This document shows positions 1 through 6,356 of a stretch of 10,596 nt of DNA, in pieces; positions within the stretch are counted from its first letter, which is position 1, and every line of letters begins with the position of its first letter. Both the position numbers and the translations under genes were made by a program. This DNA comes from Pseudomonadota bacterium. GTDB lineage: Bacteria; Pseudomonadota; Alphaproteobacteria; Rhizobiales; Rhizobiaceae. Below the pieces are notes generated by a model. That model searched no databases, was not told the origin of the DNA, and saw nothing but the letters and a program-made list of their open reading frames with translations. Location of the stretch: assembly GCA_023419995.1 (NCBI GenBank), contig JAEZXF010000019.1, forward strand, positions 1-10,596, given 5' to 3'.

Positions 1-3
1 ACC

Positions 4-858
4 TTGACCGAACCGACGACCATCTACTCGATCCAGGCGCGCCGCCGCGCCCGCCAGCCCTATCGCAACCCGCTGCGCGAGAAGCTTCGCCGCGGCGAGC
101 GGACGCTCGGGCTGTGGATCACCCTGCCGGTTCCCGCCGTCACCGAGATCGCAGCCGAGCTCGGCCTCGACTGGGTCTGCATCGACATGGAGCACGGCGC
201 GACGGCCTATGCCGACGTCGCCAACCATGCGCGCGCGGCGAAGGGAACCGGCCTCGCCGTGTTCGCGCGGGTCTCCTCCATCTCTGCGGAGACGATCACC
301 CGCTGCCTCGACCTCGGCGTCGACGGCATCGTGCTGCCGATGGTGCGCTCGGCCGACGACGTGCGCCGCGCGCTCGACTACATGCTCTACCCGCCGCGGG
401 GCAGCCGCGGCCTCGGTGGCGAGCGCGCCCAGAAATGGGGCATGGGCGTCGATGACTACGTCGCCACGGCGAACGACGAGCTGATCCTGATGCCGATGAT
501 CGAGCATGCGGACGCCGTCGCCGCCATCGACGAGATCCTCGCCGTGCCGGGCCTCGACTTCTTCTTCATCGGCCCGGGCGACCTGTCGTCGAGCCTCGGC
601 CATGTCGGCCAGTGGAACCCGCCCGGCACCGCCGAGGCGATCGAGCACGTGCTGGAGCGGGCCAGGGCGCACGGCGTCACGCCCGGCATCTACGCCCACG
701 GCACGGCGGAAGTGAAGACGCGCACGGACCAGGGCTTCCGCATCGTCGCCATGGGATCCGACCTGCCGATGATGATCACCCAGATCAGCAACGATCTCGC
801 CGTCATCGCGGAGCAGGCACAGGGCAGCGTCACGGTCATTCACGGAGGCGAGCGCTGA
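4..858 (+). CDS. HpcH/HpaI family aldolase (class II, metal-dependent)
   Basis: Cytoplasmic aldolase of the HpcH/HpaI (2,4-dihydroxyhept-2-ene-1,7-dioate aldolase) family, which cleaves 4-hydroxy-2-oxo acids to pyruvate or a related oxoacid plus an aldehyde. Residues are counted from the TTG at position 4. The family core starts near residue 22 (NPLREKLRRGE). The catalytic signature DMEHG is at 61-65 (acidic residues plus His64), followed by an Arg in FARV (Arg89). The two metal ligands expected in HpaI fit Glu167 (PMIEHAD) and Asp193 (GPGDLS). The 284-residue length is slightly long for the family because of a basic N-terminal stretch. The frame is open to the left edge, so the real start may lie outside the window. 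The ATPase gene begins 1 base after the stop, so the two are very probably co-transcribed. The family is clear; the substrate is not known. Confidence 0.9.
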   Translation: MTEPTTIYSIQARRRARQPYRNPLREKLRRGERTLGLWITLPVPAVTEIAAELGLDWVCIDMEHGATAYADVANHARAAKGTGLAVFARVSSISAETITRCLDLGVDGIVLPMVRSADDVRRALDYMLYPPRGSRGLGGERAQKWGMGVDDYVATANDELILMPMIEHADAVAAIDEILAVPGLDFFFIGPGDLSSSLGHVGQWNPPGTAEAIEHVLERARAHGVTPGIYAHGTAEVKTRTDQGFRIVAMGSDLPMMITQISNDLAVIAEQAQGSVTVIHGGER

Positions 859-859
859 C

Positions 860-2323
860 ATGGCACAGGCAGTGGCAACCCGATCGGCCGCGGAGGCCGG
901 CAGCACCGACATCAAGCTCTCGGTCAAGGGCCTGAGCAAGCGCTACGGCACCACCGTGGCGCTCCATCCGACCGACCTCGACCTGCGCACCGGCGAGTTC
1001 ATGACGCTGCTCGGCCCGTCCGGCTCCGGCAAGACGACGCTGCTGATGATGGTGGCGGGCCTGCTCAACTCCAACTCCGGCGACCTGTGGATCGACGGGC
1101 AGCGCACCACCAACTCGCCGCCGTGGGAGCGCGGCATCGGCATGGTGTTCCAGAACTACGCGCTGTTCCCGCACATGAGCGTGTTCGAGAACATCGCCTT
1201 CCCGCTGCGCATGCGCAGGATCCCCGAGGACGTGATCCGCCGCGAGGTGGCCGAGGTTCTCGACATGGTGCAGCTCGGCCATACCGCGGAGCGCCTGCCG
1301 CGCGGGCTCTCCGGCGGCCAGCAGCAGCGCATCGCGCTGGCGCGCGCCTTCGTGTTCAAGCCGCACATCATCCTGATGGACGAGCCGCTCGGCGCCCTCG
1401 ACAAGAAGCTGCGCGACCAGCTCCAGCTCGAGATCAAGAACATCCACCTGTCGCACAAGACGACCATCCTCTACGTCACGCACGACCAGGGCGAGGCGCT
1501 GACGATGTCGGACCGCATCTGCCTGATGAACAACGGCCGCATCGAGCAGCTCGACACGCCGTCGGCGCTCTATTTCCGGCCGAAGACGGTGTTCGCGGCC
1601 GACTTCCTCGGCGATTCGAACTTCATCGACGGCGCGGTCCGCGGCGCGGACGGCGCCCATGTCGGGATCGACGCCGATGCCGCCAGGGGCACGGTGCTGC
1701 GCGGCGTCGGCGAGGGCCTCGCGGCCGGGTCGCGCGCGCGCATGATTGTGCGCCCCGAGCGGCTGGCACTGTCGAGCGAGGTTCCGGAAGGCTGGAACGC
1801 GCTGCCGGTCACGGTGAAGCAGTCGATCTTCGTCGGCGGCTTCACCCGCCACTTCGTCTCCGGCCCCGGCGGGCTCGACCTCGTCTCGCTCGAGCTGACG
1901 GCCGGGCCGGGCAGCGAGCGCGCCGCCGGCCAGGAGACCATGGCGATCTGGCCGCCCGACAGCGCGGTCGTCCTCGCCGACGACACGGGCTCCGCGTCGG
2001 GAGCGCGCTGGCGATCCGGGAACGGGCCGCGCCCGGCCCGCTGCGCCGCTTCGCGGCGCGCTGGGGCAAGCTCGCACCCGTGCTTCTCCTGCTGGTGGGG
2101 CTGGCGATCCTGCCGGTCGGCAAGCTGCTCGAGCTCAGCTTCTACAGAAGCGGCGAGTGGAGCCTCGACCACTACATCCGCCTGTTCTCCTCGCCGGTCT
2201 ACGTGCAGGTGCTGGCGACCACCTTCAAGGTGGCGATCTACACCACGATCTTCACGCTCCTCGTCAGCTACCCCCTTGCCTACATCATCGCGCGGCTGCC
2301 CGAGAACCGGCGCAACCTGCTGA
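860..2323 (+). CDS. PotA-like ABC transporter ATP-binding protein (no stop at its expected end)
   Basis: Energises the adjacent permease for import of a small solute; it belongs to the spermidine/putrescine-type (PotA, CUT1-like) ATPases. Visible motifs are Walker A GPSGSGKT (52-59), Q-loop Gln98 (VFQNY), signature LSGGQQQR (150-157), Walker B ILMDEP (171-176), and H-loop His208 (VTHD). A TOBE-type C-terminal part runs from about 255 to 375. The start is the ATG 1 base after the aldolase stop, with GGAGG at 844-848 upstream. Homology-like sequence ends near residue 380 (DDTGSAS, about position 1999). From there the frame stays open to a TGA at 2321-2323, adding about 107 residues rich in Ser, Arg, Cys and Trp. 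That tail is simply the shadow of the permease coding frame. The normal product was probably 380 residues. As written, the protein would carry a nonsense tail, which may or may not be tolerated. Confidence 0.9.
   Translation: MAQAVATRSAAEAGSTDIKLSVKGLSKRYGTTVALHPTDLDLRTGEFMTLLGPSGSGKTTLLMMVAGLLNSNSGDLWIDGQRTTNSPPWERGIGMVFQNYALFPHMSVFENIAFPLRMRRIPEDVIRREVAEVLDMVQLGHTAERLPRGLSGGQQQRIALARAFVFKPHIILMDEPLGALDKKLRDQLQLEIKNIHLSHKTTILYVTHDQGEALTMSDRICLMNNGRIEQLDTPSALYFRPKTVFAADFLGDSNFIDGAVRGADGAHVGIDADAARGTVLRGVGEGLAAGSRARMIVRPERLALSSEVPEGWNALPVTVKQSIFVGGFTRHFVSGPGGLDLVSLELTAGPGSERAAGQETMAIWPPDSAVVLADDTGSASGARWRSGNGPRPARCAASRRAGASSHPCFSCWWGWRSCRSASCSSSASTEAASGASTTTSACSPRRSTCRCWRPPSRWRSTPRSSRSSSATPLPTSSRGCPRTGATC
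1991..2010 (+). other. ATPase/permease junction with lost stop and lost start codons
   Basis: In the ATPase frame the codons from 1991 read TCC GCG TCG GGA, and in the permease frame 1999-2001 reads GGG. A T at position 2000 would turn GGA into TGA (ATPase stop) and GGG into GTG (permease start), giving the common 4-base GTGA overlap. With G there, the ATPase reads on to 2323 and the permease has no conventional start until GTG at 2080, inside its first membrane helix. The codons are seen directly; the lost T is inferred. A CTG at 2008 preceded by GGGAG (1999-2003) is a possible but unusual substitute start. Confidence 0.6.
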
Positions 2324-3774
2324 TGTTCGCGGTAATGCTGTCCTTCTGGGCGAGCTTCCTCATCCGCACCTTCGGCTGGATGGTCATCCTCAACCGCAAC
2401 GGGCTGCTCAGCCAGATTCTGATGTGGCTCGGGATCACCAGCGAGCCGGTCGGCATCCTCTACACCTCGACCGCCGTGGTCATCGGCATGACGCACGCGA
2501 TGGTGCCCCTGTGCATCATGACGATGCTGCCGGTGATGCAGTCGATCGACGAGAACCTGTCCAAGGCCGGCATGGTGCTCGGCGGCAGGCCGGGCAGCGT
2601 GTTCTGGCGCATCTACTTCCCGTTGTCACTGCCGGGCGTCACCGCCGCGGCGCTGCTGGTGTTCATCACCTCGCTCGGCTTCTTCATCGTGCCCGCCTTC
2701 CTCGGCGGCCGGCTCGACACCATGCTGACGCAGCTCATCATCGACCAGGTGCAGGAGTATCTGAACTGGCCGTTCGCGGGGGCGCTGTCGCTGCTGCTGC
2801 TGGTCGCGGCGCTGCTGGTGTTCTGGATCTACGACTACCTGATCGGCCTGTCGGCGCTCGCCGGCACCGCCGACCCCAACGCCTCGGGCGGCAGGCTGGG
2901 CAGCGCCGGCGCCCGCTTCGGCCAGGCCTTCGGCGCCACGATGGCCCGCATCAGCGACGCGATCTACGGCGCGGTCGCCGCGGTCGCCGGCCGCAGCATG
3001 CCGGCCGTGGGGCAGGTCACGCGCTGGGGCGTGGTCGCCCTGACGCTCCTCTTCCTGCTGCTGCCGGTTCTGATCATGATCCCGGTGTCCTTCACCGAGG
3101 GCGCGCGCATGACATGGCCGCCCGAAGGCTTCAGCCTGCGCTGGTACGAGACGCTGTTCAACTCGCAGATCTGGACGCAGGCGGCCGTGCGCTCGCTGAT
3201 CGTCGCCGTCGCCTCGGCGACGCTGGCACTCATCATCGGCACGCCGGCGGCCTTCGCCATCGCGCGCCAGAACCTGCCGGCCAAGACGCTCATCCTCGCG
3301 ATCATCCTGTCGCCACTCATCATGCCGCGCATCGTGATCGCGGTGGCGCTGTTCTATCTCTACGCGCAGATCGGCCTCGTCGGCACCTATACCGGCCTCA
3401 TCCTCGGCCACACGATCCTCGCGATACCCTACGTGGTCATCACCGTCATCGCGGTGCAGAAGCAGTACGACCCGCGCTACGACCAGGCGGCATGGAGCCT
3501 CGGCGCCCGCCCGTCGCAGACGCTCCGGCGGGTGACGCTGCCGCTGATCCGCGGCGGCCTGCTGTCGGCGTTCCTGTTCGCCATGATCACGTCGTTCGAC
3601 GAGCTGACCATCGCCCTGTTCGTCACGGGCGGCCTTACCACGACCCTGCCGAAGCAGATGTGGGACGACGCGATCAACGTCGCCACGCCCACGCTCGCGG
3701 CATTGTCCACTCTTCTGCTGGTCTTTGTCGCTGTCATGACACTGATCGGACAGCGCCTTCAATCGCGCAGTTAG
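1999..3774 (+). CDS. Fused double ABC permease (PotB-like plus PotC-like domains), start codon uncertain
   Basis: Inner-membrane channel of the importer, with two binding-protein-dependent permease domains in one chain. Counting residue 1 at 1999, the first domain spans about 25-285. It has an opening helix (LAPVLLLLVGLAILPV), a PotB-like segment around YPLAYIIARLP and an EAA-type loop at about 188-213 (KAGMVLGGRPG, ending PLSLPG). A linker of about 50 residues rich in Gly, Ala and Arg follows. The second domain spans about 343-591, with EAA loop DQAAWSLGARPS at 495-506. Polyamine-type systems usually encode the two halves separately; fusion is the rule in some ferric-iron permeases. The frame is open far upstream, but residues before about 1999 are shadow of the ATPase. 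No ATG, GTG or TTG occurs in this frame from 1741 to 2079. GTG 2080 would cut into the first helix, and ATG 2323 would delete roughly the first two helices. Confidence 0.85.
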   Translation, partial: GSALAIRERAAPGPLRRFAARWGKLAPVLLLLVGLAILPVGKLLELSFYRSGEWSLDHYIRLFSSPVYVQVLATTFKVAIYTTIFTLLVSYPLAYIIARLPENRRNLLMFAVMLSFWASFLIRTFGWMVILNRNGLLSQILMWLGITSEPVGILYTSTAVVIGMTHAMVPLCIMTMLPVMQSIDENLSKAGMVLGGRPGSVFWRIYFPLSLPGVTAAALLVFITSLGFFIVPAFLGGRLDTMLTQLIIDQVQEYLNWPFAGALSLLLLVAALLVFWIYDYLIGLSALAGTADPNASGGRLGSAGARFGQAFGATMARISDAIYGAVAAVAGRSMPAVGQVTRWGVVALTLLFLLLPVLIMIPVSFTEGARMTWPPEGFSLRWYETLFNSQIWTQAAVRSLIVAVASATLALIIGTPAAFAIARQNLPAKTLILAIILSPLIMPRIVIAVALFYLYAQIGLVGTYTGLILGHTILAIPYVVITVIAVQKQYDPRYDQAAWSLGARPSQTLRRVTLPLIRGGLLSAFLFAMITSFDELTIALFVTGGLTTTLPKQMWDDAINVATPTLAALSTLLLVFVAVMTLIGQRLQSRS

Positions 3775-3817
3775 GAACGACCAGCAGTTGCCCGGTGAAG
3801 CGACACCAACATCCCTG

Positions 3818-3824
3818 AAGGAGG
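3818..3824 (+). promoter_or_regulatory. Strong ribosome binding site of the solute-binding protein gene
   Basis: AAGGAGG lies 5 bases before ATG 3830 and is the best Shine-Dalgarno match I found in the window. It selects this ATG over an in-frame TTG at 3788 and a GTG at 3827. A strong site fits the usual need for excess binding protein over membrane subunits. Confidence 0.85.
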
Positions 3825-3829
3825 TAGTG

Positions 3830-4900
3830 ATGATTAAGACCCCGATAACAAGACGCACGGCACTCAAGGGAGCGGCGCTCATGGGCGTCGCGCTTGCAAC
3901 ACCCGCGATCTTCCGCCCCGCGCAGGCCCAGACCAAGCAGCTGATCGTCCGCACGCCCGGCGGCCCGACCGCGCTGGCGATGCAGAAATCCTACTACGAC
4001 GCGTTCGAGGCGAAGACCGGCATCAAGATCGTGCCGGCGACGTCGACCAACGAGCCGGTCAGCCAGGTCAAGGCCATCGTCGAGTCCGGCGCCAAGACCT
4101 GGGACATGGCGGCCTCGTTCGGCCGGGCGGCGATCAGCCAGCTCATCGCCGACGGCGACTATCTGGAGCCGCACGGCCTCAACGACGATCCGGCCATCCA
4201 GGTGGTGCCGGCGGAGTTCCGCAACGACTACGCGATCGGCCACGGCATCTATGCGACGCCGCTGACCTATCGCAAGGACAAGTACGAGACCGGCCCGCAG
4301 AGCTGGGCCGACTTCTTCGACGTCGAGAAGTTCCCCGGCGCGCGCGCCATGCGCAAGAACCCGGTCGACACGATCGAGATCGCCCTGATGGCGGACGGCG
4401 TCCCCTACGACCAGCTCTACCCGCTCGACCTCGACCGCGCCTTCGCCAAGCTCGACACGCTGAAGCCGCACATCGCCAACTGGTGGACCAGCCCGGTGCA
4501 GGCGATCGAGCTGATCGTCAACGGCGACGTCAACATGGTGCCGGTGTGGTCGAACTTCACGGTCGCCGCCATCGAGACCGGCGCGCCGCTGGGCATCAGC
4601 TGGCGCAACAACATCTTCGGCGTCGACATGTTCACCATCCTGAAGGGGTCGGACAACGTCGAAGCCTGCCGCGAGTTCATCAAGTTCTGCGTGCAGGCCG
4701 AGCAGCAGGCCGGCGTCGCCAGCCAGGTGGCGATCGCGCCGACCAACCCGGACGCCTACAAGCTGATCCCCGCGGACCGGGCCGCGCTCCTCGCCAGCAG
4801 CCCGGAGAACGCCAAGGAAGCCGTCGAAATCAGCAACGATTTCTGGTCGGCCAACCGCGACGCGATCTCCGACCGCTTCAACGAGTGGCTGCTGACCTAG
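3830..4900 (+). CDS. PotD-like ABC transporter extracellular solute-binding protein, Tat-type signal
   Basis: Periplasmic receptor of the importer, 356 residues, of the spermidine/putrescine-binding (SBP_bac) type. The N-terminus carries a twin-arginine motif TRRTALK (7-13), a hydrophobic stretch (GAALMGVALATPA) and a probable cleavage after AQA at 31-33. This suggests export in folded form by the Tat pathway. The mature part opens with the strand LIVRTPGG, and includes YYDAFEAKTGIKI and YKLIPADRAALLASSPENAKE, as in PotD-like proteins. The gene starts 55 bases after the permease stop. It is followed 11 bases after its stop by a strong hairpin, which may stabilise its mRNA. PotD-like proteins bind polyamines but also other compounds. 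Its position between aldolase genes suggests an organic acid, which is an inference. The family is sure; the ligand is unknown. Confidence 0.92.
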   Translation: MIKTPITRRTALKGAALMGVALATPAIFRPAQAQTKQLIVRTPGGPTALAMQKSYYDAFEAKTGIKIVPATSTNEPVSQVKAIVESGAKTWDMAASFGRAAISQLIADGDYLEPHGLNDDPAIQVVPAEFRNDYAIGHGIYATPLTYRKDKYETGPQSWADFFDVEKFPGARAMRKNPVDTIEIALMADGVPYDQLYPLDLDRAFAKLDTLKPHIANWWTSPVQAIELIVNGDVNMVPVWSNFTVAAIETGAPLGISWRNNIFGVDMFTILKGSDNVEACREFIKFCVQAEQQAGVASQVAIAPTNPDAYKLIPADRAALLASSPENAKEAVEISNDFWSANRDAISDRFNEWLLT

Positions 4901-4911
4901 CCGGAGCAGCG

Positions 4912-4943
4912 CGACTGCGGCCGCCACGCGGCGGCCGCAGTCG
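4912..4943 (+). terminator. 14-bp GC hairpin after the solute-binding protein gene (attenuator or mRNA stabiliser)
   Basis: A perfect inverted repeat has arms 4912-4925 and 4930-4943 and loop ACGC; each arm contains GCGGCCGC. No T-run follows, so it is not a standard intrinsic terminator. It lies between the binding-protein stop and the first RraA start, 13 bases before that ATG. A partial terminator or 3'-end stabiliser that sets binding-protein level above the downstream enzymes is the most likely role (inferred). Confidence 0.6.
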
Positions 4944-4956
4944 TCAGCGAAAGATC

Positions 4957-5628
4957 ATGACCAACACTCCTCCCCTTTTCCCGACCCCCGCCTTTTTCCC
5001 GACCCCGGCGTTCGCCAACGCGGTCGAGCACGTTCTGGGCGCGTGGACGCCGCGCGCCTTCATGCTCGAAGGAATGAGCGCCGTGCGCGCTCAGGACCGG
5101 GCCGTCGGCCCGGCCTATACGATCCGGCTGCGCAGGGCGGCAACGCGCTCGCGGCAGAACGCCGCCCGCGCGCTCGCCGCCTATGACGCCGCCCCCGCCG
5201 GCAGCATCGTCGTCATCCAGGTGATGGACGACCTCGGCGGCGCGGTGATGGGCGATATCATCGCGCACCGCCTGAAGAAGCTCGGCGTCGCCGGCGCGGT
5301 CGTGGAAGGCCCGGTCCGCGACATCGACGGCCTAGCCGAGTTCGGTCCGCCGATCTGGTATCGCGACGCGGTGACGACCGGGCTCGAAATGGCGGAGACA
5401 GAGGCGGAAGCGCAGGTCGCGCTCGACATCGACGGCGTCGAGGTCGTTCCCGGCGCTCTCGTCACGGTGGATCGCGACGGCGTCTTTTTCCTCCCGGCCG
5501 GGCACGGGGACGCCATCCTCGCCCGCGCGGCGGCAGTCGTCGCCCGCGAGGAAACGCTGCATGCCGCGCTCGCCGGCGGCGAAAGCCTCGTCGAGGCGCT
5601 GGGCTTCGCCGACGCCACCGCATCCTGA
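4957..5628 (+). CDS. RraA family protein, putative class II aldolase, first of two tandem copies
   Basis: Member of the RraA/HMG aldolase family (often labelled dimethylmenaquinone methyltransferase-like), 223 residues, cytoplasmic. Relatives include 4-hydroxy-4-methyl-2-oxoglutarate/4-carboxy-4-hydroxy-2-oxoadipate aldolases and oxaloacetate decarboxylases, as well as RNase E inhibitors. Visible family blocks are VGPAYTIRLRRA (50-61), the GD motif in AVMGDIIAHR (Gly99-Asp100) and the RD pair in GPVRDIDGL (Arg121-Asp122). In the aldolases this Arg contacts the pyruvate part and the Asp binds the divalent metal. Retention of RD favours an enzyme over a pure RNase E regulator. The usual PGD near residue 167 is PGA here. 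The start is the first ATG after the hairpin; its Shine-Dalgarno (GCGAAAGA) is weak. The N-terminus holds a short tandem repeat (LFPTPA/FFPTPA). The second copy begins 56 bases after this stop. Confidence 0.88.
   Translation: MTNTPPLFPTPAFFPTPAFANAVEHVLGAWTPRAFMLEGMSAVRAQDRAVGPAYTIRLRRAATRSRQNAARALAAYDAAPAGSIVVIQVMDDLGGAVMGDIIAHRLKKLGVAGAVVEGPVRDIDGLAEFGPPIWYRDAVTTGLEMAETEAEAQVALDIDGVEVVPGALVTVDRDGVFFLPAGHGDAILARAAAVVAREETLHAALAGGESLVEALGFADATAS
4975..5010 (+). repeat. 18-bp in-frame tandem repeat in the first RraA gene
   Basis: Two 18-base units, 4975-4992 and 4993-5010, match at 15 of 18 positions around the core TTTTCCCGACCCC. They encode LFPTPA and FFPTPA near the protein's N-terminus. 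The second RraA copy has no such repeat. It looks like a small local duplication. Confidence 0.8.
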
Positions 5629-5629
5629 C

Positions 5630-5651
5630 CGCCCGCGCAGCCGCGCGGGCG
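5630..5651 (+). repeat. GC hairpin between the two RraA genes
   Basis: A 9-bp perfect stem (5630-5638 with 5643-5651, loop AGCC) begins 1 base after the first RraA stop. There is no T-run. It is probably an intercistronic mRNA structure rather than a full terminator, since the next gene starts 33 bases later with its own good ribosome site. Confidence 0.5.
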
Positions 5652-5684
5652 AACCGACACGCTCCCCAACCCGAGGTGAAAAGA

Positions 5685-6356
5685 ATGGACGACAAGCCGG
5701 CAGACACCATCGCCCTGACCGAGATCGGCAGCGCGACGATCTGGGACGCCACCGAGCACAAGCATGGCGGATTCGCCATCGGCCACCGCACGGTCGAGTC
5801 GCTGCGCGCGTTGCGCCCGACCGACCACGCGATCGGGCCCGCCTACACCATCCGGATGCGCCGCGCGGCGGCGAGCGACCCGGCCAACCGCGAGAGCTTC
5901 CTCGCCGCCTACGACCGGGCACCCAAGGACGCCGTGGTCGTGGTCGAGGTGCAGACCGACATCGGCGGCGTGGCCATGGGCGACATCGTCGCGCACAGGC
6001 TGGCGCAGCGCGGCGTCGCCGGCGTGGTGATCAACGGCGCCATCCGCGACCAGAGCGGGCTGAAGGACGTCGCTCCGCCCACCTGGTACCGCTACATCAC
6101 GCCCGCCGGGCCGGTGTCGCGCCAGACCACGGTCGAGGTCGGCGTCGAGGTCGTGGTCGACGGCGCCGTGGTGCGCCCCGGCGACCTGGTGACGGCCGAC
6201 GCCGACGGGCTGATGGTCACCCCGGCCGAGGAGGCCGAGGAGATCCTCGCCGCGGCCCGCTCGATCGTCCGGAAGGAGGCGGCGATCCACCAGCGCATCG
6301 CCGCCAAGGAAAGCATGCGCTCGATCCTGATGGGCATCAAGGACGAGGCGGAGTAG
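5685..6356 (+). CDS. RraA family protein, putative class II aldolase, second tandem copy
   Basis: Also 223 residues, with family motifs at exactly the same residue numbers as the upstream copy: IGPAYTIRMRRA (50-61), AMGDIVAHR with Gly99-Asp100, and GAIRDQSGL with Arg121-Asp122. It also keeps the typical PGD (165-167) and DADG turn that the first copy has partly lost. These residues fit a metal-dependent aldolase or decarboxylase acting on a 4-hydroxy-2-oxo acid or oxaloacetate-like compound (family knowledge). The exact reaction is unknown. ATG 5685 is chosen because GAGGTGA (5673-5679) sits 5 bases upstream; an in-frame GTG at 5676 falls inside that site. It is the last gene of the + strand operon and is followed by a strong hairpin before the convergent kinase gene. 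RraA proteins form trimers or hexamers, so the two copies could form mixed rings (speculative). Confidence 0.9.
   Translation: MDDKPADTIALTEIGSATIWDATEHKHGGFAIGHRTVESLRALRPTDHAIGPAYTIRMRRAAASDPANRESFLAAYDRAPKDAVVVVEVQTDIGGVAMGDIVAHRLAQRGVAGVVINGAIRDQSGLKDVAPPTWYRYITPAGPVSRQTTVEVGVEVVVDGAVVRPGDLVTADADGLMVTPAEEAEEILAAARSIVRKEAAIHQRIAAKESMRSILMGIKDEAE

Follow-up and report, generated by a model that had tools for sequence, protein, structure and literature searches.

In the 10,596-nucleotide stretch of DNA analysed here (the window), the junction between the genes for a PotA-like ABC transporter ATPase and a fused PotB/PotC-like permease is an ordinary junction of its kind carrying a private one-base departure, most likely an error in the sequence or a recent mutation and not a new kind of gene. 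The window reads GGGA at 1999-2002, where ATGA or GTGA would form a stop/start overlap, and thus itself lacks the four-base overlap; on sequence comparison, we assign a probability of about 0.93 to the ancestral junction having been such an overlap at exactly these positions. Judging from the geometry, the ATPase stop and the permease start of the relatives would share four bases, and ribosomes would re-initiate on the permease. The window record departs from its near-identical relatives at a single base of this overlap, and with that base both signals are lost together. The features on which the argument draws are collected in Table 1.

Table 1. Positions of the genes and junction features in the window.
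Feature	Positions	Strand	Remarks
HpcH/HpaI-family aldolase	4..858	+	PF03328; upstream of the ATPase; frame open at the window's left end
PotA-like ABC transporter ATPase	860..1999	+	380 residues to the family's usual end; ABC_tran and TOBE_2
ATT codon (ATPase Ile296)	1745..1747	+	Met in 9 of 9 close homologues
GGGA, site of the stop/start overlap inferred for the nearest relatives	1999..2002	+	P0121 end, P0001 start
Fused two-domain PotB/PotC-like permease	1999..3774	+	591 residues counted from 1999; TAG 3772-3774
Extension of the open ATPase frame into the permease gene	2000..2323	+	107 extra residues, TGA at 2321
CTG codon (permease Leu4)	2008..2010	+	Private; P, H or K in close homologues
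PotD-like substrate-binding protein	3830..4900	+	SBP_bac_8; strong Shine-Dalgarno-like site
RraA-like protein 1	4957..5628	+	PF03737
RraA-like protein 2	5685..6356	+	PF03737

Domain composition of the ATPase and the permease

In the ATPase, ABC_tran covers residues 35-177 (118.1 bits, above the cut-off of 25) and TOBE_2 covers residues 296-372 (34.3 bits, above the cut-off of 21), with homology ending at 372. Its best NCBIfam match is TIGR01187 potA, which scores 331.1 bits with the 487-residue run-through as query and stays below the cut-off of 355.6. The permease carries BPD_transp_1 in two stretches, its first half being PotB-like and its second half PotC-like, and falls short of both the PotB and the PotC equivalog cut-offs of NCBIfam (209.3 against 348 and 165.5 against 326, respectively).

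Reading frames at the junction

The ATPase frame (codons at 860, 863 and onwards) opens with ATG 860, reads GGA at 2000-2002 as a sense codon and reaches its first stop at TGA 2321-2323, giving an ORF of 487 aa as recorded. The permease frame (codons at 1999, 2002 and onwards) contains no ATG, GTG or TTG between GTG 1123 and GTG 2080, and an alternative regular permease start in this part of the ATPase gene was rejected accordingly; the NUG codons of this interval are CTGs alone (1519, 1792, 1948, 2008 and 2041), and permease homology already begins upstream of 2080. The earlier note had described an ATPase without a stop meeting a permease without a start at this point, and the frame reading bears it out on both counts. 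Codon composition changes at the same place: GC3 in the ATPase frame falls from 1.00 (1800-1999) through 0.71 (2000-2199) to 0.52 (2120-2320), as against a rise in the permease frame from 0.55 through 0.94 to 0.97 over the same three intervals, and this exchange between the two frames indicates that the coding frame changes at about 2000. We considered the open run-through as a sign of a longer ATPase and rejected it, because other frames of this GC-rich stretch are also open over long distances, an example being the 553-codon ORF of the third frame at 2157-3818.

An inverted repeat lies across the junction, GCTCC at 1989-1993 facing GGAGC at 2000-2004, with a 5-bp stem whose innermost pair uses G2000. 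Its completion by G2000 was discarded as evidence for being too weak, as 1039 of the 31698 possible substitutions in the window (3.3%) complete such a stem.

Near-identical proteins and the position of stop and start

Two near-identical proteins define where the ATPase would end and the permease begin. P0121, an ATPase of 380 aa, differs from the window at one residue (Met for the window's Ile296), and its last residue corresponds to codon 1997-1999. P0001, a permease of 591 aa, differs at three: its residue 1 is Met at codon 1999-2001, its residue 4 is Pro, against Leu in the window (2008-2010), and its residue 148 is Cys, a position occupied by Ser in the window and in most close relatives. 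The ends of the two proteins agree with each other despite their different clusters and sources. With start and stop codons deduced from these protein ends, P0121 implies that the ATPase stop follows immediately on 1999 and P0001 that the permease begins at 1999, which together make a four-base overlap. The overlap that the earlier note had drawn at 1999-2002 matches these ends, and the lengths it had given, 380 residues for the ATPase and 591 for the permease, follow from the coordinates and equal those of P0121 and P0001.

The wider sets of homologues agree. Window residue 380 is overshot by at most one residue in 115 of the 120 ATPase matches listed of 7999, the longest of which measures 399 aa. 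Among the 120 permease matches listed of 1218, the median number of residues before the codon at 2080 is 29, against 27 for a start at 1999.

The same permease matches weigh on a start further in, at GTG 2080, which would give a protein of 564 residues in this strain. This codon is the first in-frame ATG, GTG or TTG after 1123, and a weak Shine-Dalgarno (SD) pairing estimate of -4.7 kcal/mol precedes it; its use would, however, remove the basic N-terminal segment before helix 1, and 118 of the 120 homologues listed carry five residues or more upstream of it, while the other two are short fragments of 454 and 377 aa. We regard this start as highly improbable. A programmed frameshift yielding an ATPase-permease fusion was likewise weighed, given that no stop interrupts the ATPase frame at the junction and that slippage by -1 would lead into the permease frame. 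An X XXY YYZ heptamer is, however, absent from the ATPase frame between 1942 and 2317, and no fused homologue occurs among the 120 permease matches listed of 1218, the longest of which has 622 aa in a search admitting lengths up to 1.75 times the query. On these two grounds the fusion was rejected as extremely unlikely.

Junctions in related loci

Nine loci were found in genome contigs, of which seven were similar enough to be used, L008 (E 2e-27) and L009 (1e-7) being excluded from the junction counts. GTGA or ATGA, the arrangement that the earlier note had proposed to look for in relatives, is available at the junction in five of the seven. The junctions of L002 and L005 read ATGA, L003 and L004 have GTGA available, and L001 reads GTGATG, which accommodates either GTG with a four-base overlap or ATG with a one-base overlap. 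L006 reads TGACATG, without a four-base overlap, and the L007 junction is without a regular start, apart from TTG codons that lie 16 and 34 bases past the first base of the stop. Judged by this availability together with the protein ends of P0121 and P0001, the nearest relatives probably do carry the overlap.

Three of these loci are close counterparts of the window. In Brucella haematophila (L001), Ochrobactrum teleogrylli (L005) and Bosea sp. WAO (L002), the six-gene cluster of window positions 1-6356 is found with like gene content and in the same order, the ATPases being 66-77% and the permeases 66-75% identical to those of the window; unlike the window, all three have both a stop and a start at the junction. 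In the stretches of L003, L004, L006 and L007, the three transporter proteins alone were found among the six tested, and their permeases are just 51-54% identical to that of the window; these four may be paralogues.

We also examined the junction in six plasmid records among the 20 listed of 2442 matched. In all six of these less similar relatives a separate annotated stop and start lie within -4 to +4 bases of each other (+1, -1, +4, -4, +4 and +4), the distance being exactly -4 in one. The exact four-base overlap is a trait of the nearer relatives, not of all. Nowhere in the plasmid collection did a record match 80% of the 2915-base query at one place; the best of those listed reached 68-71% identity over 68-76% of it, and two records matched the permease protein at E <= 1e-150. 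Under strict E-value limits, the permease was matched in two of 394 genomes in the family of G001 (G001 and G004) and in one of 397 in the order of G002 (G002 itself), and the ATPase in one of 397 in the order of G001 (G001 itself). Two further proteins with the source label Leptospira interrogans, P0017 (permease) and P0222 (ATPase), are 58% and 54% identical to the window; contamination or a mistaken label is perhaps the reason.

Strength of the one-base argument

According to the earlier note, replacing the single base G2000 by T restores both signals. The arithmetic of that proposal holds. Taken by itself, the argument does not reach significance: a count-only control found 116 of 895 codons, and 3 of 61 between 1900 and 2080, at which one substitution could create a start/stop overlap of this geometry in these two frames. 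At the overall rate, with codons taken as independent, such a codon is expected within ten codons of any point with a probability of ~95%, and at the lower local rate a repairable codon within ten codons is still the likelier outcome. Because the one-base argument is weak by itself, outside evidence is needed, and it is the exact match to both near-identical homologues that carries the claim.

Probable translational coupling and a possible CUG start

A distance of -4 is described as the commonest gene distance in prokaryotes (PMC10666635). Through a four-base overlap the translation of two genes can be coupled, in that the ribosome finishes the first and re-initiates on the second, and overlaps are enriched among genes for complex subunits (PMC6728339, PMC10666635); for E. 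coli pairs, the results reported are not uniform (PMC6728339). The junction resembles ATGA/GTGA termination-reinitiation overlaps of this size in the geometry deduced from the window's near-identical relatives, and departs from them in that the window itself reads GGGA. SD-like pairing is estimated at -2.3 kcal/mol before 1999, whereas the ATPase start has -8.8 and that of the binding protein -11.9. A weak SD before 1999 is in keeping with a coupled start, although RraA-like protein 1, whose gene has no overlap, is also preceded by weak pairing (-3.9 kcal/mol).

Compared with 9 close ATPases and 11 close permeases, the window has private residues at 3 of 971 positions of the two proteins. The earlier note had overlooked the changes at 2009, nine bases past 2000, and in ATT 1745-1747. 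Two of the three lie three codons apart, for which chance gives a probability of ~0.018, counted after the fact. In the wider set of 120 listed homologues per protein, no private window residue was found in columns with at least 50 rows, which comprise 367 of 380 ATPase and 585 of 591 permease columns, permease columns 1 and 4 included; in these two the loose N-terminal alignment places other residues, and column 1 shows G in 13 of its 108 rows. This outcome speaks against relying on private residues, which are conspicuous solely in comparison with the close sets. For comparison, the binding protein (3830-4897), aligned with 9 homologues, has private residues at positions 2 and 182 only, in 356 columns, and so looks intact.

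The closeness of the private changes at 2000 and 2009 invites a reading in which the start has been rearranged and works: an SD-like GGGAG (1999-2003) and a CUG start at 2008, where CTG is the first NUG codon of the permease frame after the junction, would initiate a permease of 588 residues independently, and the ATPase would run on for 107 residues. The SD-like pairing estimate for the 17 bases holding GGGAG before 2008 is -6.8 kcal/mol, against -2.3 before 1999. However, CUG initiation complexes are reported to be less stable than AUG, GUG and UUG ones (PMC11497404), only four bases separate GGGAG from CTG, and GGAGC (2000-2004) folds into the 5-bp stem with 1989-1993; in addition, residue 4 is variable among close homologues, so the change at 2009 may be neutral, and none of the relatives seen shows such an arrangement. 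We consider this start very unlikely, and it is highly improbable that the changes at 2000 and 2009 constitute one evolved switch, in which the SD-like GGGAG and the CUG uncouple the permease from the ATPase and leave it a 107-residue tail.

Consensus error or real lesion

If the four-base overlap was the ancestral state, the deviating base may have entered the record in two main ways. An error in the record's consensus is the likeliest source, at about an even chance. Only 3 of 971 residues being private, the ATPase and the permease show no other decay, and the operon's six genes are otherwise open; the intact state of the operon and the fact that the change strikes two conserved genes suggest an error. 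Errors in HiSeq metagenome data favour G as the wrong call and affect T more often than any other base (PMC4787001), a bias that also counts towards error, with the reservation that these figures come from HiSeq and the record's own platform may differ.

Sequence context counts against an error. The 3-mers enriched before substitution errors are headed by two that end in GG, with GCG, CCG, AGG or TGG in third place (PMC4787001), and GGT and GGC are given elsewhere as error contexts (PMC3622629). Position 2000 is preceded by TCG when the + strand is read and by CTC when the - strand is read, so that the base does not follow a GG-ending Illumina hotspot. The earlier note had invoked T to G before G-rich sequence as a known error type; since the motifs precede the error and neither TCG nor CTC is among them, only the general G bias survives from that suggestion. 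The absence of a classical hotspot, together with the clustering of private changes within three codons, which a lone random error leaves unexplained, suggests that the base may not be an error.

A real and recent lesion, to which we give somewhat less than an even chance, would lengthen the ATPase by 107 residues, deprive the permease of its coupled start and leave the importer weak or dead in an operon that has not yet decayed. At other residues as well, the window differs from P0121 and P0001 (Ile296, Leu4, and Ser148 against Cys), and it may represent a distinct strain; the base is not at a known error motif; and long overlaps are reported to arise most often when a stop codon mutates to sense and reading continues into the following gene (PMC10666635). 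Against a lesion, no further decay is seen in the operon, and a single event would cost two subunits of an otherwise conserved complex. Should the base be real, ribosomes translating the ATPase would read on through 107 codons of the permease gene, the permease would be left with only weak start options such as CTG 2008 or GTG 2080, and the strain would offer a natural test of how strongly translational coupling between subunits matters to an ABC importer.

For annotation, the junction illustrates how one deviating base in a four-base overlap makes two genes look wrong, one too long and the other startless, and how comparison with near-identical proteins resolves such paired faults.

The gene cluster and its possible substrate

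The transporter genes resemble PotABCD-type spermidine/putrescine importers (TIGR01187 PotA, PRK09497 PotB, PRK09500 PotC, PRK09501 PotD) in their TOBE_2 ATPase, their PotB- and PotC-like permease halves, the adjoining PotD-like binding protein and the single direction of all genes. It differs from those importers in that a single chain unites the PotB- and PotC-like halves, every score stays below the NCBIfam cut-off, and the cluster adds an HpcH/HpaI-family and two RraA-like proteins. With scores under the cut-offs, a polyamine is not established as the substrate; the neighbouring genes suggest that the cluster perhaps imports a hydroxy- or oxo-acid, which would then be cleaved by the aldolase-like enzymes. 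The tandem RraA-like proteins (4957-6356) both score below the NCBIfam cut-offs for named aldolases. The first codons of the RraA-like protein 1 gene hold a short tandem repeat at 4978-5013, FPTPAFFPTPAF.
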